Source of the DNA: Candidatus Aquicultor sp. | GTDB lineage: Bacteria > Actinomycetota > Aquicultoria > Aquicultorales > Aquicultoraceae | Direction of reading: 5' to 3' | Assembly (NCBI GenBank): GCA_036504445.1 | Contig: DASXVE010000012.1 | Span: forward strand, 1 to 64,000 | DNA length: 64,000 nt | Shown here: piece after piece, positions 4,428 through 25,808 of the stretch | How the letters are laid out: each line of letters opens with the position of its first letter | Position numbering within the stretch: position 1 is the first letter of the stretch | Notes under the pieces: model-generated | Seen by the model: the letters and a program-made list of their open reading frames with translations, nothing else | Databases searched by the model: none | Told to the model about the DNA's origin: nothing | Translations under genes and position numbers: made by a program

Positions 4428-4444
4428 GAAAAGGTGGAGGAGAT

Positions 4445-4879: not shown

Positions 4880-4885
4880 GTAGGA

Positions 4886-6142: not shown

Positions 6143-6903
6143 TGCCGGTCAGTACACAAGAATTCGTAATTGATGCAAAGGGATTGCACTACCGCGACCT
6201 TAACGAGAAGATCCGCGAGGCCGTAAGAAACGGCGAGACCGAGATCAAGCTGGTTAACGTAAACGGGCAGCGCTATATCGGCGATGCAATCGATATCCCG
6301 GTTAACATAATAGTCGAGGGAATTCCGGGTGCCGATCTCGGCGCTTTCATGAACGGCCCGATGATTAATGTTTATGCAAACGCTCAGGACCACGTGGCCA
6401 ACACGATGAACGAGGGCAAGATCATCATCCACGGCGACGCCGGTGATGTTCTCGGATACGGCATGCGCGGCGGCAAGCTCTTTATCAAGGGCGATGTCGG
6501 CTACCGCGTCGGTATCCACATGAAGGAATATCATGAAAAAATACCGGTTGTCGTTATCGGCGGAACCGCAGGGGATTTCTTCGGCGAGTACATGGCCGGC
6601 GGCACCTTGATACTGCTCGGCCTACCTACCGGCAACAACGGTAAAGACGAGATTGCCGGTAACTATTTCGGCACCGGCATGCACAACGGTGTTATCTATG
6701 TACGCGGCCAACTCGAGCAATACAAGCTCGGCAAAGAAGTAGCGGTGCTCGAGCTCGACGACAGAGATCGCGCGCTCATCAAAAAGTACGTTACCGAGTT
6801 TGCAGAAGACGTAGGTCTTAATGCAGACGAGATACTGGCCGGCGAGTTTATCAAGATTAAAGCGGTGTCGAAGCGCCCGTACGGCAACTTGTACGCATAT
6901 TAA
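6142..6903 (+). CDS. Glutamate synthase GXGXG (GltB C-terminal) subunit
   Basis: A 253-aa protein corresponding to the right-handed beta-helix GXGXG domain that ends GltB. Repeating glycine-rich turns are visible (GDAIDIPVNIIVEG, GDAGDVLGYGMRGGKLFIKGDVG, GGTAGDFFGEYMAGGTLILLG, GNYFGTGMHNGVIYVRG). In full-length enzymes this domain is structural and helps form the ammonia tunnel. It is the last gene of the five-gene operon; about 270 bp follow before the regulator gene. Confidence 0.9.
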   Translation: MPVSTQEFVIDAKGLHYRDLNEKIREAVRNGETEIKLVNVNGQRYIGDAIDIPVNIIVEGIPGADLGAFMNGPMINVYANAQDHVANTMNEGKIIIHGDAGDVLGYGMRGGKLFIKGDVGYRVGIHMKEYHEKIPVVVIGGTAGDFFGEYMAGGTLILLGLPTGNNGKDEIAGNYFGTGMHNGVIYVRGQLEQYKLGKEVAVLELDDRDRALIKKYVTEFAEDVGLNADEILAGEFIKIKAVSKRPYGNLYAY

Positions 6904-7177: not shown

Positions 7178-7807
7178 ATGAAATCAGTATTTGTAAAAAC
7201 CAAAAACTTCGCATTAAAAGAAAAACTTCTAGTCGATTTGGCGACACTTGGATACCGCATCCTTATCACTAATGATGAGAGCCCCGAAATCATCGTCACC
7301 GATTACCCCGAATTGACAACGCTAGGCAACGATGATCTAAAAAAGGTCGTTCTTGTCGTTATCGATGGCGGCGACTTCGACAGCAGCGGCGTTCTGGAGC
7401 GCGTAGACGATGTTATGTTTAATCCTTATACGGCAATAGAGCTCGAACTACGCATCAAACTCGCGCTTATTAAGCACGGAGGCTATGAAACCAAAGAAGT
7501 CGATGAGTTAGCCGAGAAGGTACTCACCGTTGACGGAATGACGGTCAACTTCGACAGCTACGAAGTTTCGATCGACGGCGAGCCGCTTGATCTCACATTT
7601 AAAGAATACGAACTCCTTAAATGCCTCATTACAAACCGCGGCCGTGTCTACACGCGCGACCAGCTCTTGAGTATCATCTGGGGTTACGATTACTATGGCG
7701 GAGCGCGCACGGTCGATGTCCACGTCCGGCGTTTACGCTCTAAACTCGGCGGTCATGAATCCCTCATCGAGACGGTGCGCAACGTAGGCTACCGGTTTAA
7801 GCGGTAA
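7178..7807 (+). CDS. glnR: GlnR-like OmpR-family transcriptional regulator with atypical receiver
   Basis: A 209-aa protein. The C-terminal winged helix (about residues 115-209) carries LDLTFKEYELLKCL, WGYDYYGGARTVDVHVRRLR and ETVRNVGYRF, very close to actinobacterial GlnR. The N-terminal receiver (1-105) is degenerate: the acidic pair of strand 1 is missing, though Asp42 sits where the phosphoacceptor would be. GlnR proteins are orphan regulators that work without classical phosphorylation. It lies between a glutamate synthase operon and glnA, and the window holds GTAAC-n6-GTAAC boxes upstream of glnA (7841) and a gltB homologue (22817-22876), matching the known GlnR operator. Likely the nitrogen regulator of this region; the symbol is assigned by similarity and context. 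Confidence 0.8.
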   Translation: MKSVFVKTKNFALKEKLLVDLATLGYRILITNDESPEIIVTDYPELTTLGNDDLKKVVLVVIDGGDFDSSGVLERVDDVMFNPYTAIELELRIKLALIKHGGYETKEVDELAEKVLTVDGMTVNFDSYEVSIDGEPLDLTFKEYELLKCLITNRGRVYTRDQLLSIIWGYDYYGGARTVDVHVRRLRSKLGGHESLIETVRNVGYRFKR

Positions 7808-7840
7808 TATTTCATAAAATCCCCAGAAATTAATATATCC

Positions 7841-7880
7841 GTAACATAACCGTAACATTGTACCTGTATATTCCTTAATA
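7841..7880 (+). promoter_or_regulatory. Two GlnR-type half-sites and probable -10 region of glnA
   Basis: CCGTAACATAA followed directly by CCGTAACATTG gives GTAAC at 7841-7845 and 7852-7856, exactly 11 bp apart, as in the GTnAC-n6-GAAAC GlnR box. A possible -10 within CCTTAATATA lies 18 bp after the second half-site. The same CCTTAATA lies 19 bp after the last half-site at the gltB homologue (22797, minus strand). No good -35 is seen, which suggests activator dependence. Confidence 0.65.
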
Positions 7881-7954: not shown

Positions 7955-9373
7955 ATGAGTAGAACACCGAAAGATGTATTGGAGTTCGCAAAGAAGAACG
8001 AAGTTCTCTTTGTGGACCTGAAGTTCATCGACTTGCCGGGCGTTTGGCAGCATTTTGTGGTTCCGATTGCCGAGCTCGACGGAGACAGCTTTGAGGCGGG
8101 CTTTGGAATTGACGGCTCATCCATCAGGGGATGGAAAGCAATCAATGCCTCAGACATGATCATCCTGCCCGATCCGGATACCGCGATGATGGATCCGTTC
8201 AAAAAGTATCCGACCATGAGCCTTATCTGCGATATCGCAGACCCGATCACCAAAGAGCCTTACGATCGCGACCCGCGCTACATAGCGAGAAAAGCGGTCA
8301 ATTACATGAAGTCGACCGGCGTTGCCGACACCTGTTTCGTCGGCCCTGAAGCCGAGTTCTTCATCTTCGACAACGTTCGTTTCGATCAGAACTCACACGA
8401 GGGCTACTACGAGATTGATTCCATTGAGGGTACATGGAATACCGGTGCATATGAAGAGCCGAACCTCGGCTACAAACCGCGCCACAAAGAAGGATATTTC
8501 CCGGTACCACCGACCGATAGCCAGGACGATCTACGTGCTGAGATGGTTACCGTTATGCAAGCATGCGGCATCTATGTCGAGGCACAGCACCACGAAGTTG
8601 CAACGGCGGGCCAGGGCGAGATCGACATGCGCTTCGGCGAGCTCTTGAAAACAGCTGATGACCTTATGCTCTTCAAGTACATCGTTAAGAACGTGGCGTA
8701 TATGAACGGCAGAACCGCAACATTTATGCCAAAGCCGCTTTTTGGTGATAACGGTAGTGGTATGCATACCCACCAGAGCCTCTGGAAAGACGGCAAACCG
8801 CTCTTCGCCGGAAACGAATACGCCGGCATCAGCGAAATGGCGCTCTTCTATATCGGCGGTATTGTTAAACATGCGAAAGCACTCGCTGCGCTCACCAACC
8901 CGACCACTAACTCATACAAGAGGCTGGTCCCGGGTTTTGAGGCACCGGTTAACCTTGCGTATTCAGCAAGAAACCGCTCGGCGTCAATCCGCATCCCGAT
9001 GTACTCACCGTCACCGAAGGCGAAACGTGTTGAGATTCGTTTCCCAGACCCGAGCTGCAACCCGTACATGGCGTTTTCAGCAATGCTGATGGCCGGTCTT
9101 GACGGTATCGAAAACCGTATCCATCCGGGCGAGCCGATGGAGAAAGACCTCTACGAGCTTCCAGCGGAAGAGCTTGCAAAGATCCCGCAAATGCCGGGTA
9201 GTCTTGATGAGGCGCTCGACGCACTCGAAGCCGATTACCAATTCCTGCTCAAGGGCAATGTCTTCAGCGAAGATGTTATCAAAGCATGGATCGCATACAA
9301 GAGGGAAAACGAAGTCGATGCACTCAGGCTCCGCCCGCATCCGTATGAGTTCTATATGTACTACGATATCTAG
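7955..9373 (+). CDS. glnA: Glutamine synthetase type I (GSI-beta, adenylylatable)
   Basis: A 472-aa enzyme with AAGGAGG 7 nt before ATG. It forms glutamine from glutamate, ammonia and ATP. Visible signatures: [12 protein letters not shown] near 50, the metal-binding GPEAEFFIF (about 130), [10 protein letters not shown] (about 265), the ATP-binding [17 protein letters not shown] and the [10 protein letters not shown] motif. The C-terminal KDLYELP motif (about 395-401) carries the Tyr adenylylated by GlnE in GSI-beta enzymes, and the length fits that class. GlnE is encoded at 15.8 kb. GlnR-type half-sites precede the gene, and a strong terminator follows. Confidence 0.97.
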
Positions 9374-9470: not shown

Positions 9471-11828
9471 CTAAGACGGGCTTTTCTGTTTTATCCACTC
9501 GCCTACCAACCGCCATTCAACCTCCATAAGAAAGCCCGCAGCTATAATCCCGGCCGATATCTGATACAGCACTTGCGTCGACGGAAACTCGAGGGCTAAG
9601 AAAGTGCGGATAGCTGGAACGATGAGCACTACGGCGAGCGCGGCTACCATCGACGCAACCAGCATAGCCCGCCAGAAGGTAAGCGGCCGCACTACAATCG
9701 TAAGCACCCAAAGACCGAGAATAATAAGCGTTAACGTCGCGGCGGTTTGCATTTGAGCGGTGCTCAGGCCAGGGGACAATCGTGCCAATGTGTAAGAAAT
9801 AAGCGCCGTAAGGCCAACCGTTAGACCTATGGGTATGGCGAAATGAAGCACACGGTTAATAAAGCCTGGCCGGTAGCGTTGTTTGCTCGGGGCAAATGAC
9901 AGCACAAATGCAGGAATACCGATGGTTATCGCGTCGATCAAAGTAAGCTGTCGCGGTAGAAACGGAAACGGCCAAAGTAACAATGCGATAGCAATAGTTA
10001 TGAGCGTAACGTAGACGGTTTTGGTCAAGAAAAGGTTGGCGACCCGCTCGATATTTGCGATAACGCGCCGCCCCTCGGCAACAACGCCGGGAAGCGTCGA
10101 GAATTTGCCGTCAAGCAAAACGATCTCGGCAACCGATTTCGTTGCCGGTGCGCCAGACCCCATAGCGATCCCAAGGTCCGCATCTTTGAGCGCCAGCACG
10201 TCGTTTACTCCGTCTCCCGTCATGCCGACCACGTGACCCTTAGATTGAAGCGCTTTGACCATCTGCTGCTTCTGTTGAGGGGTTACGCGGCCGAAAATCA
10301 CACGCTCATTCAATACCCTAGCGAGCTCTGCAATATCCGAGGGGAGTTGCCGGGCATCAACCGGTTCGCCAATGTTGTTTAGCCCTGCTCGTGAGGCTAC
10401 CGTAGCGACCGTGCTGGGATTATCTCCAGAGATTATCTTTATAGCGACACCCTGATCATCGAAATAGCGCAGGGTGGCTGCAGCATCCGGGCGTACTTTT
10501 TCTTCAAGGACAACGAGGGCAACCGGCTTAATATTATCCGGCAGTTTCTCATCTTCAAGAGCTTCACTGCTTTTGGCAAGCAAGAGGACCCGCAAACCGG
10601 TTCCGGCGAGAGCGTTGACACGGTTGAGCACGGATTCATCTACATTAGCACCACTTAGCAGCACCTCGGGAGCTCCGAGAAGCCAGGTTCCGTGCCCGGT
10701 AAAGCTCGCACCGCTCCATTTCCGTGCGGATGAAAAGGAGACGGAACCCACCTCCTGCCAGCCCCCGGGTGCCGGTATGGCTGCAGCAATTGCCCCCAGT
10801 GTAGGATTTTGATAAGCCGCTTCTGCAGCCAAAGCGCCAAGGGCTTGGCATGCTTCATCGTTGCCGTTATCTAATAGCTCTAAGCGACTAAAAGACAGGA
10901 TGCCTTCGGTAATTGTCCCGGTCTTATCAAGGCACAACACATCGACTCTCGCCAGCACCTCGACCGCCGGTAGCTGCTGTACCAGGACGTTCCTGTGTCC
11001 AAGCGATATAATGCTTACCGCAAATGCCGCGCTGGTAAGAAGAACCAGCCCCTGAGGAATCATCCCGATAATGCCGGCGGCCGACCCAGTGACAGCGGCG
11101 CTAAACGATATATGCGCTTGAAGTTGGCTCACCAGCAGGACGAGCGATGTAGGAATAATTATCCACGTTACATAGCGCAGGATAGTGTTAATACCGTTTT
11201 GCAGCTCCGAGCGCACCGGGCTGAAGTAACGCGCCTCGGCCGCTAGCTTTCGTGCATACGCATCGGTGCCTACTCTGTTTGCCTTGATTAAGCCGGTCCC
11301 GGCAACCACGAAACTTCCCGATAGCACGGTATCACCGGGGGCTTTAGTAACCGGCAGCGATTCACCGGTAAGAAGCGATTCATCAACCTCAAGATTTTGG
11401 GAGTGTAAGACTATCCCGTCAACCACAATCTGATCGCCCGGTCTTAGTTCAAGCACATCGTCGAGCACTACATCGCTCATGGCGATCTCAAAGCTTTTCC
11501 CATCACGGATAACGCGGGCTTTTGGGGCGCTAAGTAGCGAGAGCCGGTCGAGCGTCCATTTTGCCCGCACTTCTTGTATAGTGCCGATCAACGTGTTAGC
11601 GACGAGAACAAGGCCGAACAAAGCATCTCTGATCGAGCCAAATAGAAGGATTACAACAAGCAGTGCACCAAGAATCGCATTAAACAGCGTAAAGACATTA
11701 GAACGAATAATCTCGGCGTAAGAGCGGCTCGTCGTCTCCTTGACGGCGTTAACCTTGCCACGTTGCATGCGTTCTCTAACTTCGGCTTCGGTGAGGCCGT
11801 TAATCGGATTGTTACTCTTTGGTTCCAT
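9471..11828 (-). CDS. P-type cation-transporting ATPase, CtpE-like
   Basis: About 785 aa from the ATG at 11828; an in-frame TTG at 11846 is possible, neither with a strong ribosome-binding site. Hallmarks: the actuator LTGES, the phosphorylation motif CLDKTGTITEG with catalytic Asp near 300, and MTGDGVNDVLALKDADLGIAMG in the hinge. N-terminal pairs of membrane helices are followed by six more at the C-terminus. The N-terminal GLTEAEVRERMQRGKVN and FTLFNAILG segments resemble actinobacterial CtpE (reported as a calcium uptake ATPase). Substrate is therefore possibly Ca2+, by similarity only. It stands alone, convergent with glnA. Confidence 0.88.
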   Translation of the reverse strand: MEPKSNNPINGLTEAEVRERMQRGKVNAVKETTSRSYAEIIRSNVFTLFNAILGALLVVILLFGSIRDALFGLVLVANTLIGTIQEVRAKWTLDRLSLLSAPKARVIRDGKSFEIAMSDVVLDDVLELRPGDQIVVDGIVLHSQNLEVDESLLTGESLPVTKAPGDTVLSGSFVVAGTGLIKANRVGTDAYARKLAAEARYFSPVRSELQNGINTILRYVTWIIIPTSLVLLVSQLQAHISFSAAVTGSAAGIIGMIPQGLVLLTSAAFAVSIISLGHRNVLVQQLPAVEVLARVDVLCLDKTGTITEGILSFSRLELLDNGNDEACQALGALAAEAAYQNPTLGAIAAAIPAPGGWQEVGSVSFSSARKWSGASFTGHGTWLLGAPEVLLSGANVDESVLNRVNALAGTGLRVLLLAKSSEALEDEKLPDNIKPVALVVLEEKVRPDAAATLRYFDDQGVAIKIISGDNPSTVATVASRAGLNNIGEPVDARQLPSDIAELARVLNERVIFGRVTPQQKQQMVKALQSKGHVVGMTGDGVNDVLALKDADLGIAMGSGAPATKSVAEIVLLDGKFSTLPGVVAEGRRVIANIERVANLFLTKTVYVTLITIAIALLLWPFPFLPRQLTLIDAITIGIPAFVLSFAPSKQRYRPGFINRVLHFAIPIGLTVGLTALISYTLARLSPGLSTAQMQTAATLTLIILGLWVLTIVVRPLTFWRAMLVASMVAALAVVLIVPAIRTFLALEFPSTQVLYQISAGIIAAGFLMEVEWRLVGEWIKQKSPS

Positions 11829-12105
11829 AGTTATATATACCGCCAAGCAGCAAGATGTAAAAAACGTATGGCGTACAGGGGGTTCTCACGCGAGCACATC
11901 TAGTTTTAGTGCGTGCATTGAACCATATGTCAACGCCAACCACCATACTATCATATTAAAGCGCCTTTGTAGCCGTCAAAGAAGACCGCTTTTGTCCTAT
12001 AATCTGTAAGCTTGGCATGGAATTTCGTATAATGCTTGTTAGGCTTTATTTTGTCTTCAAATAAGGCTTAGGGTTAACAGTATTAAAGCGCTAGAAAGGT
12101 TGGCA

Positions 12106-12594: not shown

Positions 12595-12933
12595 TTAGAG
12601 TGCGTCCTCACCACGCTCACCGGTTCTGATGCGCACGACTTCTTCAAGAGGATTTACAAAGATTTTGCCGTCGCCGAGCTCGCCGGTGTGGGCTATCGTT
12701 TCTACTATCGAGACGACCTCATCAACGCGCTCGTCAGGCACGGCGAGTTCGATCTTCACTTTAGGGATAAATCGGACTTCGCTCGACGCCCCGCGGGAGG
12801 TTTCTATGTGACCTTTCTGCCTGCCAAAACCGGTAACTTCTTTTACGGTTAGGCCTGAAATATTAGCGTTGATAAGCGCCTCTTTTACTGAATCAAGTTT
12901 GAAGCTCTTAACTATCACTACAACCATTTTCAT
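12595..12933 (-). CDS. glnB: PII nitrogen-regulatory protein lacking the T-loop tyrosines
   Basis: A 112-aa protein from ATG 12933 (MKMVVV), with GAGG 8 nt upstream; longer in-frame extensions are unlikely. PII signatures are clear: VTGFGRQKGH, PKVKIELAVPDERV, GDGKIFV and the C-terminal IRIRTGERGEDAL. In the T-loop the segment corresponding to ELYRGAEYMVDF of E. coli GlnB reads ETSRGASSEVRF, so both Tyr46 and Tyr51 (the uridylylation/adenylylation site) are Ser. The ATP- and 2-oxoglutarate-binding regions look intact, so it may signal by ligand binding alone. It is a single gene without amtB next to it. Confidence 0.92.
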   Translation of the reverse strand: MKMVVVIVKSFKLDSVKEALINANISGLTVKEVTGFGRQKGHIETSRGASSEVRFIPKVKIELAVPDERVDEVVSIVETIAHTGELGDGKIFVNPLEEVVRIRTGERGEDAL

Positions 12934-13241
12934 CCGGGCTACCTCATCCACAGCAACAGTACTTGGAGTTAGAATGTTAAAGCAAAAAAGCGAATGATTC
13001 AATCGTCGCTTAGTGCTGTTTGAATAGGGCTCAATCTTATAGTAACAAATACTTTGCAAGAAGTTCTCTACTCTACATTCAGCCGCTTGTATGCTCCAAG
13101 AAATATCTTACGCAGCGATATTTGTTCCTACGTTTTTCTCCTCGTCAAGTGCTCTGTCGCCCTATGAGCATTGCCTCTGCCGGATATTCAAACGTTTATT
13201 ACGTATTCATACCAGGAATAGAAAAGAGATAGTAACGCTGA

Positions 13242-13336: not shown

Positions 13337-15646
13337 TTGGTTGGTAAAGAAATTGAGAAAGTAAGGTTGAGACGCTTTGGTCTTTGGCGCTTAACTCTAC
13401 TAGGGGTGTTTCTATTGCTTGCGCTAGCCCTGGGTGGCGTCGCAATGGCGGCCGGAACACCCCAACCGGTTGGTATTGGAATGGGTGATAGCGGATTCCT
13501 GGTAAATCCAACGATCGACTATGTAACAAATCCGATAACCGCGAGCACCCAGGCTTTGGTTGCGGTAACGGGCACCGCAACGCCGATGTCTCTGGTAAGA
13601 ATCACTTTAGTGGATAACGTTCAGCATAACGTTGAAGTATCCACTCAAGCGGATATTAACGGTACATATACGGCGTATCCAATAAACACAGCCACGCTTA
13701 AGAAGGGTACGGTACAGGTATCTGTCCAATCTGTATTCGGGACCTTCAGTGGGGTATATGGCCCCGTCAATGTCACAAAAGAGCAGTGCTTCGCGATTGC
13801 GTCGATTCCCGCTTGGATTAATCTCAATAACAAAAATGCGGTTGAGGTAACTGGCACAGCCGAAGCCGGTGAAATCGTCGATGTTGCGCTTTACGACAAA
13901 ACGTTCGATCAAGCCGGCGACACGAGCGGTTATGCGTTACTGGAGACCACCACTGCCAATAACGGCGAGTTCTCGATGATTTTCGACGTCTCATCGTTGG
14001 CAGACGGAACGATTACCGCCGACGGGGTGGCCGGTTTCGGTACCGACAGCAACTGGAATCTCATCCCAGAAGAAGATTTCACGTATGAAAAGCCCATCAA
14101 GAAAGATACAGTCGCACCCATAGTTACCGTTTCGGCGCCCGTATCGGGCAGCATAATGGAGAGTGATTCTCCGGCGCTTAGCTACACAGCTACCGATGAG
14201 GATGGCGAAGGAATAAAATTCATTACTCCAAGGATCACGCTTGATGGGATATGTGATATTGCCCCTGATACGGGGTTCATCACAGCTGACGGCCGGCCGC
14301 TAAGCGACGGAGAGCACACTCTTGTGCTTGCTGCATCCGACGCAGCAGGGAACGAAACAGTAAAAAACATCCCGTTTATAGTCGACCTTAAATATCCCGA
14401 CATTATGTCGACCAGCCCAAACAATGGAGCCTTAAGCGTCGCTGTTGATACGACGATCAGGGTGACATTCAGTGAGGGAATCGTTCCGGGCAGGGGCTTT
14501 AATGGGATAACGCTTGCATATTACGGCGCAGATGGAAAGCCGGCGGCCGTGTCCGCGAGTAAAACCGTAGATACAAGTAATCCGGCAATACTGGCAATCG
14601 ATCCTAATGCAAACCTCGCAGAAGAAACCACGTACACTATATCTATCCCGGTCAACGCCGTAGCTGACGTTGCCGGCCGCACCTACCGCGGGCTTCTTAA
14701 TGAACAGGACGAGACGTGGGGCATTTACACCTTTACGTTTAAAACCGGAAAACAGCCCGTAACGCCCCCATCGGGGAACGGAGGCGGTAATAACGGTGGC
14801 GGCGGTAGCAGCGCCGGCAATCTCGATAGTGCGCCTGCGGCCCCAAAAAACTTAAGGGCGTCATCAACCGATTTACTTATATCGCTTGAGTGGGATGATA
14901 ACACCGAAGCAAATCTGGCCGGGTATATCGTATACCGAGCCCTAAAGGGAAGCACCAGCTTTGCCAGGCTCAATACTGTCCTACTGCCTGTAGCCGAATA
15001 CCAGGATGCCTCAGCAAAAGCCGGTGTGGTATACACCTATACTGTCACCGCCGTGAGCAAGGGCGGTGACCACAGCGGCACATCAGCTCAGGTGGACGGG
15101 TCGCTTACAGCAGTCAAGGGTGAGAGAATTTTTCGCGATGTTACACCCGGTTCGGCATGTGAACAAGCCGCAACACGCCTGGTAGCGATTGGGGCGATTA
15201 GCGGCTATACCGACGGCACATTCAAGCCCAATCAAAACATTACGCGCGCCGAATTTGCAAAAATGGTTGTTCTTGCAATGGGTTGGGCTCTCGAAGACAC
15301 ATCACACGCGTCGTTTTCAGATTGCACCAGCGATAACTGGGCCTTCCGTTACATCGGGACCGCCAAAGCGCACGGAGTGCTCACCGGTTACCCGGACGGC
15401 ACATTCAGGCCGAAATACACCATAACAAGAGCCGAAATCGCAAAAATCGTTGCGCTTATTCTCAGCCTCAAGCGGGGCACCAGCGAACTTACCGACATTG
15501 ACGGGCATTGGGCACGAGAGTACATCAACTCATGCGCATCGGGCGGCATTATCACCGGTTACACAGATCGCTCGTTCAGGCCGAGCAATCTTGCGACCCG
15601 CAGCGAAGCCGCATATATGGTCGTTCGTATGCTCGATAAGAAGTAA
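13337..15646 (+). CDS. Secreted surface protein with Ig-like, FN3 and three SLH domains
   Basis: A 769-aa protein. TTG start 6 nt after AGGAGGG. The N-terminus is basic with a long hydrophobic signal peptide cut near AMA-AGTP (about residue 38). Then come beta-rich Ig-like segments (about 45-330), a Big_5-like domain (about 350-480) including YPDIMSTSPNNGA and TIRVTFSEGI, a Gly/Asn-rich linker (GNGGGNNGGGG), an FN3 domain with NLAGYIVYRA, and three S-layer homology repeats in the last about 175 residues (GYTDGTFKPN, GYPDGTFRPK, GYTDRSFRPS). SLH repeats bind pyruvylated cell-wall polymers, so the protein is probably part of, or attached to, the S-layer. Confidence 0.88.
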   Translation: MVGKEIEKVRLRRFGLWRLTLLGVFLLLALALGGVAMAAGTPQPVGIGMGDSGFLVNPTIDYVTNPITASTQALVAVTGTATPMSLVRITLVDNVQHNVEVSTQADINGTYTAYPINTATLKKGTVQVSVQSVFGTFSGVYGPVNVTKEQCFAIASIPAWINLNNKNAVEVTGTAEAGEIVDVALYDKTFDQAGDTSGYALLETTTANNGEFSMIFDVSSLADGTITADGVAGFGTDSNWNLIPEEDFTYEKPIKKDTVAPIVTVSAPVSGSIMESDSPALSYTATDEDGEGIKFITPRITLDGICDIAPDTGFITADGRPLSDGEHTLVLAASDAAGNETVKNIPFIVDLKYPDIMSTSPNNGALSVAVDTTIRVTFSEGIVPGRGFNGITLAYYGADGKPAAVSASKTVDTSNPAILAIDPNANLAEETTYTISIPVNAVADVAGRTYRGLLNEQDETWGIYTFTFKTGKQPVTPPSGNGGGNNGGGGSSAGNLDSAPAAPKNLRASSTDLLISLEWDDNTEANLAGYIVYRALKGSTSFARLNTVLLPVAEYQDASAKAGVVYTYTVTAVSKGGDHSGTSAQVDGSLTAVKGERIFRDVTPGSACEQAATRLVAIGAISGYTDGTFKPNQNITRAEFAKMVVLAMGWALEDTSHASFSDCTSDNWAFRYIGTAKAHGVLTGYPDGTFRPKYTITRAEIAKIVALILSLKRGTSELTDIDGHWAREYINSCASGGIITGYTDRSFRPSNLATRSEAAYMVVRMLDKK

Positions 15647-15807
15647 CCGGCAATAAGAAATCAGGCAGTAATCGGTAATGATGCTGCCGGTAATGGAATA
15701 ACCGGAATTGCACTCGATGATTCACATGCGCAATTCGCAACCACCAGCTTACATAGTCTATAATATCGAGGTGATACTTCTGCAACTATCTTAAGGTGCC
15801 GATAGAA

Positions 15808-18702
15808 ATGATTATGGATGCAGCACTTAAACAAGCAGCTGAATTAACACCTGACCCCGAGCGGGCGTTTAAAAACCTGGAGCGGTTTGCGGTATCCGCG
15901 CCTGACGTTCTTGAAAGGAACTCATCCAGTATTGGCGCCATCGCCAGGCTGTTTGCGTACAGCCAGTTTCTCGCCGAATATTCGTTTACACATCCAAACG
16001 ATCTTGTAGAAGCGCTGCTCGCAATGAACCAACCGGTTCTAAGAGACTATATCATGTCATCATCGCGGTCAGAACCCATCATGCGACTTGTTGGCTCACC
16101 AAACGGCAGCGGCACTAAAACTGACGCACCAAGATTTGTTAATAACAGCAGCACCCAAACCGGCACCGGGAGCATGCCTAAAGCCGCTACGCCATTACCG
16201 CACAGCTTCAAACAGAACGCACTTAAGTTCGTGCGCGATATCAAGTACCGCTATCTTCTGCGAATAACACTTCGCGACATCATGGGCTTGACGGATATCA
16301 GTCTGTGCATGTTCGAGCTCAGCGAGCTTGCGGAGGCTATCGCCCAAATCGCACTCGATCTCTCGCACGCAATGATTCGCGAGCGCTTTGGTATGCTTGA
16401 CGACAATTCGTACTGCATACTGGCACTCGGCAAACTCGGCGCCGGAGAGCTCAATTACAGCTCCGACATCGACATTATGGCCGTCTATAAATCAAGCGAC
16501 GGTCTCTCGACCGGCACCATCTCGGCAAACGGCCTGCTTGTAAACAGAATCGAGCCGCACGAGTATTATTGCCGGCTCACCGAAACGCTTACCAATCTGC
16601 TGCAAGCCCAAACCGAGAATGGCTTTGCGTATCGCGTAGATCTGCGCCTGCGTCCGAACGGGCGCAAAGGGGAGCTCGCGCTTTCAGAAGATGCGTATGC
16701 TATGTATTACGAATCGTGGGGACAAACCTGGGAGCGCATGGCGCTTTTACGCGCCCGCCCTATAGCCGGCGACATTACTCTCGGCCGGAATTTAATCGAA
16801 GCGATCACACCGTTTATCTGGCACCGTTCCTCGGATTTCTATGAGATAGAAGAGATCCGAGAGCTTAAAAAGAAGATCGATACCGTGTTTGACGCAAACG
16901 ATATCAAGCGTGGCTACGGCGGTATCCGCGAGATCGAGTTTTTCATACAAACATTCCAGCTTCTCTACGGGGGAGAGCGCGAACGTTTGCGCACGCATCA
17001 GCTCCATATCGCGCTTAAAGAGCTGCTTCAAGAACGATTCCTCATAGACGAGGACGTAGACACGCTTGCCCAGAGTTATCTGTTCTTGCGGCATGTAGAG
17101 CACGTGCTCCAAATGAGAGATAATCTGCAAACGCATACGCTTCCCGCGCAACCGGATGAGCTTGATATTGTTGCTCGCAAACTCAACTTCGGCGGTCAGA
17201 AAGAATTCTTGTCCGAGCTTAAGCTCAAGCGCCTTATGGTGCGCGACATGTATAACTCGCTGCTCGGCGGCCCCGAGATCAAGCATGAAACAGACGTATT
17301 TCTGGAGGACGAGCTTGCCGACAATGAGATCCGGGACTATCTTGCGTTCAAGGGCTTTAAAAATCCCGATCAGGCGCTTAATAATATCAAGGCGCTCAAC
17401 GAGCAGGTGCAATTTGAGAAAACCATCAGAGAGCGCACGCTTCTCAGAAAATCGATCCCTATGTTCCTTGATGAAAGCCTGCGAGTCGAAAACAAAGACC
17501 GGGCGCTTAGCATGTTTACCACTTTTATTCAAAAGGTCGGCGAGCATGAGTCATATATCGACCTGTTCTCCACACGTCCGGACACAGTAGAAATCATCAT
17601 ACGAACCTTCTCCGACAGCAAGTATTTCTCTCGCGCCCTGCTCAGTTTGGATAATCTCGAGAGCATCTTCGAATATCCCGACATCCGCATGGACTACGCA
17701 GCCGTAAAAGAACGTCTCGCCGGTATGCTCGAGTACAGCCGTGACCCCATGGCCTCAGTGCGCGAGTTTAAAACAATCGAGGAGTTGCGCGCGGGGTTAC
17801 TCTTCCTGAAAGGGATCCTCGACATAGACGGTCTTTCCGATAAGCTCAGCATACAGGCATCAACAATTGTGCGCACAGTTTTGCAGCACTTGGGTGGCAA
17901 CAATGGCTTTGCTGTTATCGGGCTCGGAAAATTTGGCGCCGCCGAGATGAATATCGGCTCCGACCTCGACCTTATATTTATCGCCGATAATCCTGAGGCC
18001 GAGCGATTAGCCGAAGAACTCATAAAATTCCTCGCTGAATACACCGATCGCGGCATCGTCTATGAGATCGATATGCGGCTCAGGCCCGATGGCTCAAAAG
18101 GCATTCTCGTGAATACTATTGAAGGGTACAGGAACTACTACCTTAAAGCGGCTCACCCGTGGGAGATACAGGCGCTTCTAAGAGCCCGCTCGATCGCCGG
18201 CGACAGAAGCCTCATACGCGCGTTCAATAAATTAAAGAAGCAGGCTATAACGCTCAGGGGTGGGGAGAATAACGGTGCCGATATGCGGGCCATGCGCCGT
18301 AGAATTATACAGGAAGTATCGAGAGAATCGTCCGGTTACGACATAAAGCTCGGCCCCGGTGGGGTTGAGGAGATCGAGTTTCTAATCCAATATCTTCAGC
18401 TCAAACATGCCTCCCAGCATCCGGATATTATAACGCATCGTACGACCACTGCGCTGAATCGGCTCACAGAACACGGCATAATCAACGCCGACGCAAAACG
18501 TTACCTCAGCCATACGTATGCGTTTATGCGGACAATCGACACGTTGCGAAGGATTAACGACGAGCATGTGCTCAAACCCAACTCCGAACTAGCCGACGTT
18601 ACCGCCCGCTTCTTCGAATTCGGCTCTCGAGACGAACTGTTTTTCGAGCTAAAGGATGCCCGCAAGAAAATTGATGCTCTCGCGACCAGGTATTATATCT
18701 AA
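15808..18702 (+). CDS. glnE: Bifunctional glutamine synthetase adenylyltransferase/deadenylase
   Basis: About 964 aa, the usual two-domain GlnE length. ATG 15808 is preferred because AAGGTG lies 9 nt upstream; an in-frame GTG at 15796 overlaps that site. Two nucleotidyltransferase domains are seen, each with a GlnE signature: LGKLGAGELNYSSDIDIM (about 210-230, deadenylylating half) and GLGKFGAAEMNIGSDLDL (about 705-722, adenylylating half), both with RLRPNG/RLRPDG following. Linked helical regions carry GYGGIREIEFF and GPGGVEEIEFL. It should modify the Tyr of the GSI-beta enzyme at 7955-9373; the PII input partner here is atypical. Confidence 0.95.
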   Translation: MIMDAALKQAAELTPDPERAFKNLERFAVSAPDVLERNSSSIGAIARLFAYSQFLAEYSFTHPNDLVEALLAMNQPVLRDYIMSSSRSEPIMRLVGSPNGSGTKTDAPRFVNNSSTQTGTGSMPKAATPLPHSFKQNALKFVRDIKYRYLLRITLRDIMGLTDISLCMFELSELAEAIAQIALDLSHAMIRERFGMLDDNSYCILALGKLGAGELNYSSDIDIMAVYKSSDGLSTGTISANGLLVNRIEPHEYYCRLTETLTNLLQAQTENGFAYRVDLRLRPNGRKGELALSEDAYAMYYESWGQTWERMALLRARPIAGDITLGRNLIEAITPFIWHRSSDFYEIEEIRELKKKIDTVFDANDIKRGYGGIREIEFFIQTFQLLYGGERERLRTHQLHIALKELLQERFLIDEDVDTLAQSYLFLRHVEHVLQMRDNLQTHTLPAQPDELDIVARKLNFGGQKEFLSELKLKRLMVRDMYNSLLGGPEIKHETDVFLEDELADNEIRDYLAFKGFKNPDQALNNIKALNEQVQFEKTIRERTLLRKSIPMFLDESLRVENKDRALSMFTTFIQKVGEHESYIDLFSTRPDTVEIIIRTFSDSKYFSRALLSLDNLESIFEYPDIRMDYAAVKERLAGMLEYSRDPMASVREFKTIEELRAGLLFLKGILDIDGLSDKLSIQASTIVRTVLQHLGGNNGFAVIGLGKFGAAEMNIGSDLDLIFIADNPEAERLAEELIKFLAEYTDRGIVYEIDMRLRPDGSKGILVNTIEGYRNYYLKAAHPWEIQALLRARSIAGDRSLIRAFNKLKKQAITLRGGENNGADMRAMRRRIIQEVSRESSGYDIKLGPGGVEEIEFLIQYLQLKHASQHPDIITHRTTTALNRLTEHGIINADAKRYLSHTYAFMRTIDTLRRINDEHVLKPNSELADVTARFFEFGSRDELFFELKDARKKIDALATRYYI

Positions 18703-19653: not shown

Positions 19654-19695
19654 AGAAGTTGCCTAGTTTCCACTACTTAGTGATTGAGGTGTTAT

Positions 19696-21024
19696 GTGGG
19701 CGTGAGAACAGATCAAGAGTATGTATTGAGGCAAGTAAAGGAAAAGGACGTTAAGTTTATCAGGTTCTGGTTTACCGATGTTCTAGGCTTCCTAAAGAGT
19801 TTTGCGGTAAGTCCGGCTGAACTTGAAACGGCGTTTGAAGAGGGCATGGGCTTTGACGGATCATCTATTGAAGGATTTGCCCGCATCGAAGAGTCGGATA
19901 TGGTTGCGAAACCGGATCCAAACACATTTACCCTGCTTCCGTGGTCGGGGGAGACCAACGTGGCGCGAATGATCTGCGATATACAGCAACCGGACGGTTC
20001 GCCGTTCGATGGCGACCCGCGCCATGTATTGAAGAAGAACCTCGATAGAGCCGCAGCTATGGGCTATACCATGTATGTCGGCCCCGAGCTCGAATTCTTC
20101 TATTTTAAGGATTCAAACGGCACCGAGGTGGTTGATAAAGGCGGGTACTTCGATCTCACACCGCTCGATCTCGCGACGCCGTACAGGCGTGAAACGATAT
20201 TCGCGCTCGAGAGTATGGGGATCACGGTCGAGTATTCACACCATGAGGTCGCCCCGAGCCAACATGAGATCGATCTTCGCTATACCGATGCTTTGGCTAT
20301 GGCCGATAACGTAATGGCATATCGTCTGGCGGTAAAAGAAATCGCCCAGGTAAACGGAGTCTATGCAACCTTTATGCCGAAACCGATCTTTGGGGAAAAC
20401 GGCAGCGGTATGCACGTTCACCAGTCGCTCTTCAAGGGTGATTCGAACGCGTTCTATGACGAGCACGACCCGGCGCACTTATCCGATGTCGGCAAAGCGT
20501 ATATCGCCGGTATCCTGAAGCACGCAGCGGAGATCACGCTTGTTCTCAACCAATGGGTAAACAGCTATAAACGCCTGGTTCCCGGTTATGAAGCGCCGGT
20601 TTATTTGTGCTGGAGCCGCCGCAACCGGAGCGCGCTTGTGCGCGTTCCGATGTATAAGCCGGGCAAGGAATCTGCAACCAGGGTTGAATTGAGAAGTCCC
20701 GACCCGGCGTGTAACCCGTATCTCGCGTTTTCGGTCATGCTTGCAGCCGGTCTCGAGGGTATCGAGAAAGGATACGAGCTACCGCCCGAAGCGAGCGATA
20801 ACATCTACGAAATGACCGAAAAAGAGCGTAGCGCCGCAGGTATTACTACATTACCTGAGGATCTTAACGAAGCAATAAAGCTCGCGGAGAAGAGCGAACT
20901 TATGCATAAAGCGCTTGGCGAGCACGTCTTCGAGTACCTGCTCCGCAATAAGAGATCTGAGTGGGATAGCTATAAGGCGCAGGTCACGGAGTATGAGCTA
21001 AAGCGTTATTTAGAGATACTCTAA
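19696..21024 (+). CDS. glnA: Glutamine synthetase type I (GSI-alpha)
   Basis: 442 aa from GTG 19696, 5 nt after GAGGTG; an in-frame TTG further upstream overlaps this site and is rejected. Typical signatures: [58 protein letters not shown]. At the position of the adenylylation motif it reads DNIYEMTEKE, as in the short GSI-alpha enzymes, which are not controlled by GlnE but usually by feedback inhibition and repressor proteins. It is about 30 aa shorter than the GSI-beta paralogue at 7955-9373. The organism therefore has two differently regulated glutamine synthetases in one 14-kb region. Confidence 0.95.
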   Translation: MGVRTDQEYVLRQVKEKDVKFIRFWFTDVLGFLKSFAVSPAELETAFEEGMGFDGSSIEGFARIEESDMVAKPDPNTFTLLPWSGETNVARMICDIQQPDGSPFDGDPRHVLKKNLDRAAAMGYTMYVGPELEFFYFKDSNGTEVVDKGGYFDLTPLDLATPYRRETIFALESMGITVEYSHHEVAPSQHEIDLRYTDALAMADNVMAYRLAVKEIAQVNGVYATFMPKPIFGENGSGMHVHQSLFKGDSNAFYDEHDPAHLSDVGKAYIAGILKHAAEITLVLNQWVNSYKRLVPGYEAPVYLCWSRRNRSALVRVPMYKPGKESATRVELRSPDPACNPYLAFSVMLAAGLEGIEKGYELPPEASDNIYEMTEKERSAAGITTLPEDLNEAIKLAEKSELMHKALGEHVFEYLLRNKRSEWDSYKAQVTEYELKRYLEIL

Positions 21025-21130: not shown

Positions 21131-22768
21131 CTACAGCATGAGGTCTAAATCGGCAATAATCTCGGAATACGCCTGACCGTCGATAATTCTGAATGCTTCC
21201 TCGCGATATGCATCCATGACGTACGGTATACCGGATATCTGCGCAGCTTCTTCGGTGAGCGACATGAGGTCCCTGCGGCTGACGGACGGTATCGAATAGT
21301 TTCTGGTACCGGCCATGAGCTGCTGTAAGCCGACTTTAAGCTTGTCGGCAAAAGTATAGATTGCGATTGCGCCGGATGGCATCTTGTTAACCGTGTCTTT
21401 TCCGTATTTTGCAACAAGCTCTTCGTAGCTTACGAAAATTTCCTCCATTGTCGAGCCGAACTGTGCGACCGACTTAGGCAGGCTTGCGGCGCCTTCCTGG
21501 AGCCAGAGGCCGATGTTCTTGCCGACCATACCGGGAATCATAAGCGCGCGGCCCATGCAGACCGCTTTGAAGTACGGCGCGCCCATTGCAAGGACTTTAA
21601 ATATGTGGTCCTCGGCTGAGAAGCCGCCGCCCATAGCTAAATCAGGAACAAACGCACCGTTTTCACGGAGACGCTCGACGAGTTCATAGGTCATTGCTTG
21701 CAGGTAGAACGTTGGAACGCCCCACTCTTCCATCATACGCCACGGGCTCATGCCGGTACCGCCGGGAGCGCCGTCGATCGTAACGAGGTCAAGTTTGGCG
21801 TCCGATGCCCATTTAAGCGCCATAGCAAGCTCGCGCATAGGATATGCGCCGGTCTTTAAGCTGACACGCTTTGCACCGAGTTCACGCAGGCGGTCGACCT
21901 CACGCATGAACGCTTCCTGGTCGATAAAGCCGAGGCGTGAGTGACGCTCAAATTGTTTGATCGCCCCGTCTTTAAATGCCTTCTGATTTGCCTCAATCGA
22001 TGGGTCGGGGGTTATAAGATAGCCGCGTTTCTGCAACTCAAGTGCTCTTTCAAGCGAGTTGATCTTAATCTCGCCGCCGATACACTTGGCGCCCTGTCCC
22101 CACTTGAGCTCAATCGTCTCAACGCCGAGCTTATCCATAACATACTCAGCTACACCAAAGCGCGTATCTTCAACGTTCATTTGAACGATAAGGTCACCGT
22201 AACCTTCGTTCCATTTCTTATAGATTTCCACACGACGACGCATCTCCGGAGACTCAACAACTTTACCGTTTTTAAACTCCGCATTTGGGTCGATACCGCA
22301 AACATTCTCACCGCAGACGAGGGAGATTCCGGAAATAGCTGTTCCAGCAGCAAAGTGCTCCCAGTTGACGCGGGCGATATCGGTCGAGCCAAGGGCTCCG
22401 GTAAAGATCGGCATGCGCATCTTCACTTTGTTGGTTACGCCGTACTGTGTCTCGGTGTTAACCATAGGGAAGAGCGTGTTGTCAGGATCGCCGATTTGTC
22501 CTTCAGGAAGGCCTTTGGCACCGAACGCGTATCCCATGATATTGAGATGCGAGTAATCGACCGGATACTCTTTGTCGCCACCGGCGGTAATCATACCGTA
22601 CGGGCCCGGGTAGATTACCTCTCTACCGCGGAACGAGGACTTGAAAACCTCGCAGTTTCCCCGGCAGCCATCCTCGCATCGAGTACACAGGCCTGAACCG
22701 GGAACAACGCTTCGTGACCTGTTAGACGTCATCGTAGCGTCGTTAGAATTCGGACGTTGAAGATTCAT
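21131..22768 (-). CDS. Stand-alone FMN-binding glutamate synthase family protein
   Basis: A 545-aa protein, ATG 7 nt after AAAGGAG. It resembles the central FMN barrel of GltB: LKWGQGAKCIGGE, VTIDGAPGGTGMSPW (phosphate-binding loop) and MGRALMIPGMVG. It has neither an amidotransferase nor a GXGXG domain. The N-terminus has a compact Cys motif C-x2-C-x3-C-x3-C (CTRCEDGCRGNC, about residues 28-39), unlike the 2[4Fe-4S] domain of the operon copy at 2901-4427. Family members are often annotated as glutamate synthase, but the ammonia donor and true substrate are unknown. An array of six GlnR-type half-sites lies just upstream, so it is clearly linked to nitrogen control. Confidence 0.85.
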   Translation of the reverse strand: MNLQRPNSNDATMTSNRSRSVVPGSGLCTRCEDGCRGNCEVFKSSFRGREVIYPGPYGMITAGGDKEYPVDYSHLNIMGYAFGAKGLPEGQIGDPDNTLFPMVNTETQYGVTNKVKMRMPIFTGALGSTDIARVNWEHFAAGTAISGISLVCGENVCGIDPNAEFKNGKVVESPEMRRRVEIYKKWNEGYGDLIVQMNVEDTRFGVAEYVMDKLGVETIELKWGQGAKCIGGEIKINSLERALELQKRGYLITPDPSIEANQKAFKDGAIKQFERHSRLGFIDQEAFMREVDRLRELGAKRVSLKTGAYPMRELAMALKWASDAKLDLVTIDGAPGGTGMSPWRMMEEWGVPTFYLQAMTYELVERLRENGAFVPDLAMGGGFSAEDHIFKVLAMGAPYFKAVCMGRALMIPGMVGKNIGLWLQEGAASLPKSVAQFGSTMEEIFVSYEELVAKYGKDTVNKMPSGAIAIYTFADKLKVGLQQLMAGTRNYSIPSVSRRDLMSLTEEAAQISGIPYVMDAYREEAFRIIDGQAYSEIIADLDLML

Positions 22769-22806
22769 TCTTTACACTCCTTTGTATGTTTTATTAAGGG
22801 GCTTCT

Positions 22807-22876
22807 GTGACTATATGTTACATACATGTTTCCGGCATGTTACAAACAAGTTACGGCAATGTTACGTCCATGTTAC
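22807..22876 (-). promoter_or_regulatory. Array of six 11-bp GlnR-type half-sites upstream of the gltB homologue
   Basis: On the plus strand GTTAC or GTTTC starts at 22817, 22828, 22839, 22850, 22861 and 22872, each exactly 11 bp after the previous. Read toward the gene (minus strand) this is five GTAAC and one GAAAC, mostly followed by AT; a GTGAC at 22807 is off by one base. This equals three consecutive GTnAC-n6-GAAAC-type GlnR boxes. TTAATA, a possible -10, lies 19 bp downstream (22797-22792). Confidence 0.85.
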
Positions 22877-23015
22877 ACAAGTTAGCGACTACGCGCAATG
22901 TAATACAGCAGATCGTTTTAATAAGAGTCATATTTTATGCTAGGTAGAGTGCAGTGCCAGCACATAACGCCGTTGAATCGGACACTCCATCCCCACTGAA
23001 AATTTGCCCTCACCC

Positions 23016-23042
23016 TTGATAAACAGTAAAATTAGTTATAAT
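23016..23042 (+). promoter_or_regulatory. Probable polA promoter
   Basis: TTGATA (23016-23021) and TATAAT (23037-23042) with a 15-bp spacer, somewhat short. The predicted start near 23049 excludes the longer in-frame polA start at 23004 and supports TTG 23067. Confidence 0.5.
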
Positions 23043-23066
23043 ACGCAGAAAAGGACAGACTCGCGC

Positions 23067-25808
23067 TTGAAAAAGAAAATTATCCTAATTGACGGCAATA
23101 GCTTGGTGTACAGGGCTTTTTTCGCCTTGCCTACGACGCTTACCAACTCAAAAGGCCAGGTCACAAACGCAGCGTACGGCTTTACCAGTATGCTTATTAA
23201 GCTTCTAAAAGATGAAAAACCCGACGTCGTTATTGCGGCGTTCGATAGGGCCGCTCCCACGTTCCGCCATGAAGAGTTTGAAGAATACAAAGCGCACCGC
23301 GCCCCCGCTCCGAACGAGCTTATCAGCCAGTTCCCGGTGGTCAAGTCCATCCTAAAGGCGCTTAACATCCCCATCTTCGAGATGGACGGATTTGAGGCGG
23401 ATGATATCCTGGCCACCCTCGCCTCAAGAGCCGAAGCGGAAGACGACACAGTCTTTGTGGTGACCGGCGACCGGGATGCGTTCCAGCTCGTCGACGACCA
23501 CATCAAGATCATGACCACCCGCAAAGGTATATCCGATATCGTTGTTTACGATCGCGAGAAGGTCGAAGAGAAGTACGGCGTCACACCCGAGCAGGTCGTC
23601 GACTATCTTGCGCTTAAAGGAGATCCGTCGGATAACATCCCGGGCGTGCCCGGTATCGGCGAAAAAACTGCGGCCAAACTCATACAGCAGTACGGAAACC
23701 TTGAGAACATCCTGGATAACCTCGATTCAATAGAAAACAAACGCTGGCGCGAAATGCTCTCGGAGCACATCGACGAGGCGCGACTCTCGAAACGCCTGGC
23801 GACGATGGAGCGTGACGTTCCAATTGAAGTCAATTATGACGAGTGCTTGCTCGGTAACTGGAATGAAGAGGAAATCCGTGCGGTCTTTTCCGATCTGGAG
23901 TTCTTCAGCCTTCTTGACCGCTTTTTAAAGCAGGTAAACAAGGGTATAAAAGGTGCGGTGTGCGGTAACACGGGCTCATCAGCCGACTCTCGCGGCATAC
24001 CAGAGATCGAGGTAAAAAGCAGCGTTCAGCTTGCGAGCGAACCGGTAGATATAACCAATCAGGCTGCGCTCGATAAGCTTACCGCCGAACTTGATGTCGC
24101 TACATCGTTCGCCGTATCGATTCTTACGAGCGGCACCGGCAACATCGACAAGCGCATCGAAGCTTTTGCAGTAGCTGTTGATGATAAAGCATACGTTATC
24201 ACAAGGAATGAAAGCGCCGGTAATGAAGGTCGCCTTTTCGACTTAGAACCACAAAACGAGAGCGGTATAGCGCTCGACCATGCACTATCAACCCTCAAAC
24301 CGTATCTGGAAAACAGAGCCGTAACAAAGATCGCGCACGATGTGAAAACGCTCCTGCTTACATTTTGGAATGAAGGCATAAAACCCGAAGGCTTCTCGTT
24401 TGATACGATGATCGCCGCCTATCTACTCAACCCTGAGCGGTCTGACTATCCGATAGCCGAGCTTGCAGCTATTCACCTAGGTGCATCCATTCCCGATGAC
24501 GATATACGCGCCCGCTTCGCTCATGAAGCAATCGCCAGCTACAAGCTTAAAGACAAGCTCGAAGAGCAGCTCAAAGAGAAAAGGCAGATCAAGCTATTCG
24601 AAGAGGTAGAGATGCCGCTCGTTCCCGTGCTTGCAACGATGGAGCACCAGGGTGTCGGTCTGGATATCGACTACCTCGAAGACCTTGCCAAAGAAGTCGA
24701 CCTATTCCTCGAAAACATAGAGAATGAAATATACTCGCTCGCTGAGCAGGAGTTTAATATAAACTCACCGCAGCAGCTGGGTTTTATCCTGTTTGAAAAG
24801 CTCGGGTTGCCGAAGTCGAAGAAAACCAAGACCGGCTACTCGACCGACGCCAACGTGCTCAACAGGCTCCTCACCGTGCACCCGATCGTCGAGAAGATTA
24901 TCGCCTATCGTGAACTCGCCAAACTGAAATCAACCTATATCGATGCTTTGCCGAAGATTATCAGCCCGGATGACGGCAGGCTTCATACATCGTTCAACCA
25001 GACGGTAACAACCACCGGACGCCTCTCAAGCAGCAACCCCAACCTGCAAAACATCCCGGTGCGAACCGAACTGGGGCAGCGCATTCGCGAGGCGTTTATC
25101 CCTACGAACCGGGGCGATGTATTTCTTTCCGCCGATTACTCGCAGATCGAGCTCAGGCTTTTGGCGCATTATTCCGGCGAACCGGTGCTTATAAAGGCAT
25201 TTCAGGAAGACCGCGATATCCATGAGGCCACGGCCGTTGAAGTATTCGGCGTTCAACCGGAGCAGGTTACCTCGCAGATGCGCCGCATAGCAAAGGTGGT
25301 CAACTTCGGCGTGCTTTACGGCATGAGCCCATTCGGCCTCTCCGAGCGCCTCGGTATGTCGGTCGGCGATGCCCGCAAGTTCATAAGCCGCTACTTCGAG
25401 CGCTTGCCGAAAGTGGAAGAATTTATTCAAAAAACCATCGCCGAGGCGAGCAAATGCGGCTATGTCGAGACGCTTCTCGGGCGCCGTAGGTACATCCCGG
25501 AGCTCAAGAGCACTAATAATAATTTACGTAGTCTGGGTGAGCGCTTTGCGGTTAACGCACCGCTGCAAGGAACTGCGGCAGATATAATCAAGCTCGCCAT
25601 GGTGCGCATCGACAAACAGCTCGCCGAACAAGAATTGCAGACAAAAATGGTGCTCCAGGTGCACGATGAACTCATCTTTGAGGTGCCGGAGAACGAGCGC
25701 GAACGCGCCGAAAAGCTCATCAGACTACTCATGGAAAACGCCTATCCGCTCGATGTTAAGTTGAAAATTGATGTTGCGATGGGTATAAACTGGAAAAATG
25801 CGAAGTAA
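23067..25808 (+). CDS. polA: DNA polymerase I
   Basis: 913 aa from TTG 23067 (LKKKIILIDGNSLVYRAFF), chosen over 23004 because the promoter lies between them. The N-terminal 5'-3' exonuclease domain (1-300) shows DGFEADDILATLA and GDPSDNIPGVPGIGEKTA. The middle domain (about 330-500) is 3'-5' exonuclease-like and apparently degenerate: the acidic Exo motifs are not clear. The C-terminal polymerase domain has motif A DYSQIELRLLAH, motif B RIAKVVNFGVLYGMSPFGL and motif C VHDELIFEVP. It serves in Okazaki fragment processing and repair synthesis. The next gene on this strand is rpsA, after a structured RNA. Confidence 0.97.
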   Translation: MKKKIILIDGNSLVYRAFFALPTTLTNSKGQVTNAAYGFTSMLIKLLKDEKPDVVIAAFDRAAPTFRHEEFEEYKAHRAPAPNELISQFPVVKSILKALNIPIFEMDGFEADDILATLASRAEAEDDTVFVVTGDRDAFQLVDDHIKIMTTRKGISDIVVYDREKVEEKYGVTPEQVVDYLALKGDPSDNIPGVPGIGEKTAAKLIQQYGNLENILDNLDSIENKRWREMLSEHIDEARLSKRLATMERDVPIEVNYDECLLGNWNEEEIRAVFSDLEFFSLLDRFLKQVNKGIKGAVCGNTGSSADSRGIPEIEVKSSVQLASEPVDITNQAALDKLTAELDVATSFAVSILTSGTGNIDKRIEAFAVAVDDKAYVITRNESAGNEGRLFDLEPQNESGIALDHALSTLKPYLENRAVTKIAHDVKTLLLTFWNEGIKPEGFSFDTMIAAYLLNPERSDYPIAELAAIHLGASIPDDDIRARFAHEAIASYKLKDKLEEQLKEKRQIKLFEEVEMPLVPVLATMEHQGVGLDIDYLEDLAKEVDLFLENIENEIYSLAEQEFNINSPQQLGFILFEKLGLPKSKKTKTGYSTDANVLNRLLTVHPIVEKIIAYRELAKLKSTYIDALPKIISPDDGRLHTSFNQTVTTTGRLSSSNPNLQNIPVRTELGQRIREAFIPTNRGDVFLSADYSQIELRLLAHYSGEPVLIKAFQEDRDIHEATAVEVFGVQPEQVTSQMRRIAKVVNFGVLYGMSPFGLSERLGMSVGDARKFISRYFERLPKVEEFIQKTIAEASKCGYVETLLGRRRYIPELKSTNNNLRSLGERFAVNAPLQGTAADIIKLAMVRIDKQLAEQELQTKMVLQVHDELIFEVPENERERAEKLIRLLMENAYPLDVKLKIDVAMGINWKNAK

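Follow-up and report, generated by a model that had tools for sequence, protein, structure and literature searches.

GlnR has been studied so far in Streptomyces, mycobacteria and their kin. Its boxes in actinobacteria are direct repeats of the form gTnAc-n6-GaAAc, as described for S. coelicolor, A. mediterranei and M. smegmatis (PMC10704036), and GTnAC-n6-GTnAC (a-a) pairs are the common form in S. venezuelae (PMC10704036). The consensus usually occurs as two boxes; S. coelicolor amtB carries three, and a complex with RNA polymerase contains four GlnR protomers (PMC5826061, PMC10704036). The extra box at S. coelicolor amtB made activation more prompt (PMC5826061). GlnR can also repress, as reported for gdhA in S. 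coelicolor and ald in A. mediterranei (PMC4140684, PMC5826061).

Here, we describe an array of six phased half-sites upstream of a gltB-like gene in a 64,000-nucleotide stretch of DNA (the window). The window holds a cluster of nitrogen genes from an actinobacterium closely related to Candidatus Aquicultor, the nearest loci being L031 and L032. Very probably, this array is an operator of the GlnR type. What makes the locus interesting is less its count of six than the long arrays found throughout the family and the apparent exchange of NrpR for another regulator.

A gltB-like gene in a nitrogen cluster

The cluster includes the following genes:

1761-6903: glutamate synthase genes in separate pieces
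12595-13059, minus strand: PII gene
15796-18702: glnE
19684-21024: second glutamine synthetase gene
21131-22768, minus strand: gltB-like gene, 545 aa, encoding a free-standing FMN-barrel protein akin to the synthase domain of glutamate synthase (Pfam and AlphaFold2)

The gene downstream of the array had been introduced as a gltB homologue. Its kinship with the FMN-barrel domain holds, but the name is loose, as the protein has neither the glutaminase nor the GXGXG domain. Pfam Glu_synthase covers residues 282-411 only, which is part of that domain. The AlphaFold2 model (mean pLDDT 68.8) has FMN-dependent barrel enzymes as its best PDB fold matches; a sequence search of the PDB returned no match, and the fold search gives the FMN-barrel class only. 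With a partial Glu_synthase domain and an FMN-barrel fold, 'glutamate synthase' is therefore not an established name for this protein, and we call it gltB-like. It is followed in the window by polA. The cluster also encodes a P-type ATPase between the glnA and PII genes (9471-11846; best NCBIfam match to the proton-efflux type, below cut-off) and a 769-aa protein that combines S-layer homology domains with Ig-like ones (13337-15646).

Six half-sites in phase

22817-22876, minus strand: array of six half-sites at an exact 11-bp pitch, gapless (sequence and chance estimate)
22876-22872, 22865-22861, 22854-22850 and 22843-22839, minus strand: GTAAC half-sites in gene sense
22832-22828, minus strand: GAAAC half-site in gene sense
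22821-22817, minus strand: GTAAC half-site in gene sense
22807-22811, minus strand: GTCAC, a possible seventh GTnAC half-site by sequence, out of phase because the next half-site is 10 bp away instead of 11

Read directly on the plus strand, the words are GTTAC at 22817, 22839, 22850, 22861 and 22872 and GTTTC at 22828, gapless and at the exact 11-bp spacing given in the preliminary description, whose interval began at 22807 and so marks the minus-strand GTCAC. All six half-sites fit the GlnR box (GTnAC / GaAAC with 6-bp spacers) at exact pitch; the 5-bp words are near-perfect and the spacers differ from one another. The same description took the array for three successive GTnAC-n6-GAAAC boxes. 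In gene sense, the order is a-a-a-a-b-a rather than an alternating a-b-a-b, and a single adjacent pair (22843-22828) forms a literal GTnAC-n6-GAAAC box, the remaining pairs being GTnAC-n6-GTnAC or in reverse order.

Such a run is highly improbable by chance. At the half-site frequency measured in the window (0.0022 per position and strand), runs of six are expected ∼6e-10 times per 2.57-Mb genome. None of 60 windows simulated with an order-3 Markov model gave a run of more than 2; the window itself has one run of 2, at glnA, and one of 6. Scored as an 11-bp chain, the array reaches 55.8, the maximum of the window; ten simulated windows never exceeded 31.2. A scan of the window for further phased arrays left only glnA and the gltB-like gene standing out by score and context together. 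The array at the gltB-like gene was seen only in the window's species and has no phylogenetic footprint of its own.

The signal comes from the phasing of the half-sites rather than from the isolated motif. Loose GTNAC-n6-GNAAC sites with one mismatch allowed number 48 in the window against 37 +/- 6, which is near chance. A genome-wide search with this motif had been expected to reveal nitrogen genes, yet it gave 46 sites against 47 in the reversed control. Searches of the genome for GTNAC-n6-GNAAC or GTAAC-n6-GTAAC stay at control level and are therefore useless alone for defining a regulon. Exact sites on contigs C11, C24 and C34 were rejected for their unconvincing promoter context, and an exact site on contig C30, just upstream of a gene for a GlnR-like paralogue, may be real.

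A conserved box at glnA and long arrays at amtB across the family

7830-7834, plus strand: TTAAT, weak third half-site of glnA
7841-7856, plus strand: GTAAC-n6-GTAAC box preceding glnA, conserved in position in G002, G003, G004, G006, G008 and G009
7867-7872, plus strand: TATATT, -10 hexamer exactly 10 bp past the last glnA half-site, a spacing shared by seven glnA promoters
7955-9373, plus strand: glnA, type I glutamine synthetase, adjoining the regulator gene

The proposal that the array upstream of the gltB-like gene is a GlnR-type operator gains support from glnA, where the GTAAC-n6-GTAAC box is present at all seven readable loci (the window and six genomes), each time exactly 10 bp ahead of the -10 hexamer. 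The amtB promoters carry longer rows. Among ten family genomes, amtB1 has eight phased half-sites in nine and nine in G002 (six in G011, from another family), and amtB2 has four to six. The amtB arrays likewise end 10 bp ahead of a -10-like hexamer. Column entropy in the amtB1 arrays is 0.31 bits at half-sites against 1.22 in the more variable spacers, a contrast that leans toward this result as the arrays were picked by half-site score.

Both amtB promoters of the window's own genome lie on contig C25. A gapless 11-bp array of eight half-sites precedes amtB1, followed by 10 bp and TATTAT (L249 1960-2041), and one of six half-sites precedes amtB2, followed by 10 bp and TACAAT (L249 3913-3972).

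Eight or nine half-sites at amtB1 and four to six at amtB2 show that this family ordinarily builds long arrays without gaps. The array at the gltB-like gene had been thought unusual for covering three boxes; that view does not survive the eight and six half-sites at the genome's own amtB promoters or the three-box amtB promoter known from S. coelicolor (PMC5826061).

A GlnR-like regulator and other candidate binders

7178-7807, plus strand: GlnR-like OmpR-family regulator, 209 aa, the likely binder; winged helix-turn-helix domain with GlnR recognition-helix sequence, degenerate receiver

That a GlnR-like protein is encoded at 7178-7807 was anticipated in the preliminary description, and GlnR structures are indeed its best sequence matches in the PDB (8hig, 116 bits; 8hih, 113 bits), ahead of RegX3 as the best non-GlnR match (89 bits). 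The protein has the winged helix-turn-helix domain expected of GlnR, with a match to PF00486, and this DNA-binding domain is 57-59% identical to that of GlnR against 41% to that of RegX3. Its recognition-helix region reads GGaRTVDVHVRRLRsKLG, compared with GGTRTVDVHVRRLRAKLG in 8hig/8hih. In the fold search KdpE and MtrA come slightly ahead of 8hih, and the GlnR DNA-binding domain is matched at 1.7 A over 99 columns. The other half of the protein resembles, by its sequence, the atypical receiver of GlnR: it gave no match to the Pfam receiver domain, and in an alignment of nine family members it is poorly conserved and keeps neither the acidic pair nor the Thr/Ser and Lys positions of a typical phosphorylation pocket. 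The gene is an orphan with no adjoining sensor kinase gene, its neighbours being glnA and the gene for the glutamate synthase GXGXG subunit. NCBIfam gives no equivalog above cut-off, so that 'GlnR-like' is our own reading. That the protein would bind GlnR boxes and control nitrogen genes is supported by comparison between genomes, through the conserved glnA box and the amtB arrays.

Ten regulators in the genome carry an OmpR-type DNA-binding domain. Eight have ordinary receivers, and seven of these are at most 43% identical to GlnR in the DNA-binding domain; the exception, own_C3, is 51-55% identical. A second GlnR-like regulator with a degenerate receiver is encoded on contig C30 (L163 1550-2242), with its own GTAAC-n6-GTAAC box immediately ahead of the probable start (L163 2231-2246), and is possibly autoregulated. 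Its DNA-binding domain is 71% identical to that of the 7178-7807 protein, and it could also bind the array at the gltB-like gene. The 97%-complete assembly G007 has amtB arrays; neither an orthologue of the 7178-7807 protein nor the glutamate synthase locus was found in it, which leaves room for another binder.

NrpR and an apparent exchange of regulators

In methanogens, NrpR represses under nitrogen excess. Five members of the family (G001, G002, G003, G006 and G008) carry nrpR (PF01995) and, immediately after it in the same operon, the gltB-like gene at 85-88% identity. A 21-bp palindrome, GGTAAACGGTTRCCGTTTACC or a near match, stands 25-27 bp before nrpR in all five. These palindromes (L137, L138, L140, L141 and L142) are candidate bacterial NrpR operators. 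In the window genome, whose completeness is rated at 100%, PF01995 has no match and matches to the palindrome stay at control level, so that both the NrpR protein and the palindromic operator expected for NrpR control of the gltB-like gene are absent there. The gene order is gltB-like, nrpR, polA in G003 and gltB-like, array, polA in the window.

Absence of the array from related genomes that conserve the gene had been named in advance as grounds for abandoning the operator. The five relatives show that very pattern, with the gene conserved at 85-88% identity and the array missing. Since the gene belongs to an nrpR operon in these five relatives, we take the pattern to reflect a regulator swap rather than to speak against the operator.

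Across the 34 Actinomycetota loci that could be scored, an 11-bp array precedes the gltB-like gene in 22 of 28 genomes that lack NrpR and in 0 of 6 that have it (Fisher p 0.0007, uncorrected for kinship). In G011, which belongs to another family and lacks NrpR, four half-sites precede a gltB-like gene of 46% identity. At Coriobacteriia-type loci, arrays beside the gltB-like gene mostly read toward a divergent glnA2, not toward the gltB-like gene. The arrays between these divergent genes (L053-L091) are GTAAC-n6-GAAAC-n6-GAAAC-like, and in many a conserved TTTCGGCTATY adjoins the first half-site; a search of the literature library used here found nothing on GlnR regulons in Coriobacteriia.

A strict mutual exclusion of NrpR and GlnR-type arrays was considered and dropped, because phased arrays occur upstream of nrpR in family members. 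Four of the five NrpR-bearing members have such an array, reading away from nrpR (p 0.003-0.007; p 0.053 in G003). These arrays lie at L141 63-89 and L142 3-29 and also in L138 and L140; the one in G002 is followed by 10 bp and TATAAT. In G001 and G002, the gene divergent from nrpR is cut by the contig end.

A tree of the gltB-like proteins joins the window's protein to those of the NrpR-linked family members (98/94) and does not settle the branching order among them. Loss of nrpR in the window lineage is thus the likelier reading, though not a proven one. Apparently, the gltB-like gene has been swapped from NrpR to GlnR-type control, a direction that we infer.

Proposed mechanism and alternatives

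The best explanation, to which we assign a probability of about three in four, is that the array would serve as the operator of a GlnR-type regulator that sets transcription of the gltB-like gene by nitrogen, NrpR having been replaced. The binder would be an atypical response regulator of the GlnR type; the 7178-7807 protein is the most likely candidate, and its C30 paralogue a possible one. It would bind head to tail on successive 11-bp half-sites, each about one helical turn, so that three dimers, lined up along one face of the DNA, would fill the six sites. Bound in this way, perhaps cooperatively, the array would set transcription of the gltB-like gene according to nitrogen status. The cooperative loading or graded nitrogen sensing suggested in the preliminary description was put too strongly, and the gltB-like array lacks the 10-bp step to a -10 hexamer found at amtB and glnA. 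This control would have replaced that by the repressor NrpR, which close relatives encode in the same operon as the gltB-like gene.

Two candidate -10 hexamers bear on the direction of control:

22810-22815, minus strand: TATAGT, the better candidate (-10 matrix score 4.2)
22791-22796, minus strand: TAATAA, the alternative candidate, a weak match (score 1.8)

The geometry of half-site, 10 bp and -10 hexamer, a rule drawn here from 27 family promoters (glnA and amtB), breaks down at the gltB-like gene: the -10 matrix built from those promoters (median score 8.3) finds no strong hexamer 10 bp past the last half-site. TATAGT lies one base past that half-site and 12 bp past GAAAC 22832-22828, and scores below nearly all of the 27 reference hexamers. 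TAATAA scores below all of them and lies exactly 10 bp past the off-phase GTCAC, the spacing seen at glnA and amtB. About 0.9% of window positions reach a -10 score of at least 4, and a promoter scan of 22700-23100 gave two matches, near chance.

Activation under nitrogen limitation is somewhat favoured, since the half-sites point the same way as the gene, which is also their orientation at glnA and amtB; moreover, the relatives' gltB-like gene belongs to an nrpR operon, so that the expected state would be expression under limitation. Repression, in which a GlnR-type protein would cover the gltB-like promoter when nitrogen is short, falls below even odds but comes close to activation in likelihood, given that the array stops right at the best -10 candidate and departs from the 10-bp spacing of the amtB and glnA promoters. 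GlnR is a documented repressor, with S. coelicolor gdhA and A. mediterranei ald as precedents (PMC4140684, PMC5826061).

The nitrogen link itself would be indirect if the array were bound by another OmpR/PhoB-type response regulator, such as a PhoP-like phosphate regulator or an MtrA-like one. PhoP competes with GlnR at S. coelicolor amtB (PMC5826061), 11-bp direct repeats are usual for the whole OmpR/PhoB family, and the genome offers ten regulators with such a domain, own_C3 among them, while the amtB arrays of G007 stand without a detected 7178-7807 orthologue. We nevertheless consider such a binder unlikely, as the same half-sites precede amtB, and glnA beside the regulator gene, all of them nitrogen genes, and the half-site is GTTAC/GTAAC. 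The PHO box is built of GTTCA-type 11-bp direct repeats, and all six words here are GTTAC or GTTTC. It is very improbable that the array is no operator but a mere curiosity of the sequence, either the remains of a tandem repeat or an element of DNA structure. A structural element would also fit the 11-bp pitch, and no relative keeps the array at the gltB-like gene. Against this reading, the spacers differ from one another between near-perfect words, and words and pitch recur before the family's glnA and amtB with the spacers free to vary.

A bolder extension of the GlnR-type operator reading is tentative. The half-site count may be set promoter by promoter (two or three at glnA, four to six at amtB2, six at the gltB-like gene and eight or nine at amtB1) and tune the switching by a GlnR-type protein that loads head to tail as an extended row, the gltB-like gene having moved from NrpR into this system. 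If so, the count would set how early and how strongly each gene switches on as nitrogen falls, and the window lineage would have lost nrpR and the palindrome and gained the array.

Comparison with known systems

The eight or nine gapless half-sites kept at amtB1 across the family, together with the 10-bp step to the -10 hexamer, offer a testable system for the role of extra regulator copies. At the gltB-like locus, one nitrogen regulator has apparently been replaced by another, with both states visible in close relatives.

The array compares as follows with known GlnR operators, among which three-box sites had been described before. Like actinobacterial GlnR boxes, it consists of 5-bp half-sites with 6-bp spacers, repeated head to tail at an 11-bp pitch before nitrogen genes. 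Unlike them, it runs through six gapless half-sites (eight or nine at amtB1) where four are usual, it shows no a-b-a-b alternation, and it comes from a lineage distant from the model genera Streptomyces and Mycobacterium. S. coelicolor amtB, with its three GlnR boxes, likewise has six half-sites in all (PMC5826061); there the target is amtB, whereas here the six sites stand before a gltB-like gene and the family's amtB1 carries at least eight. In the GlnR-RNA polymerase complex 8hih, GlnR DNA-binding domains lie head to tail on consecutive half-sites (PMC10704036). The 7178-7807 protein matches its GlnR chain in sequence and fold, and the complex places four protomers on four sites against the six half-sites of the gltB-like array. 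Finally, NrpR (PF01995), known from methanogens, is encoded in one operon with this gltB-like gene in five family members; it is absent from the window genome, where the array occupies the place of nrpR.
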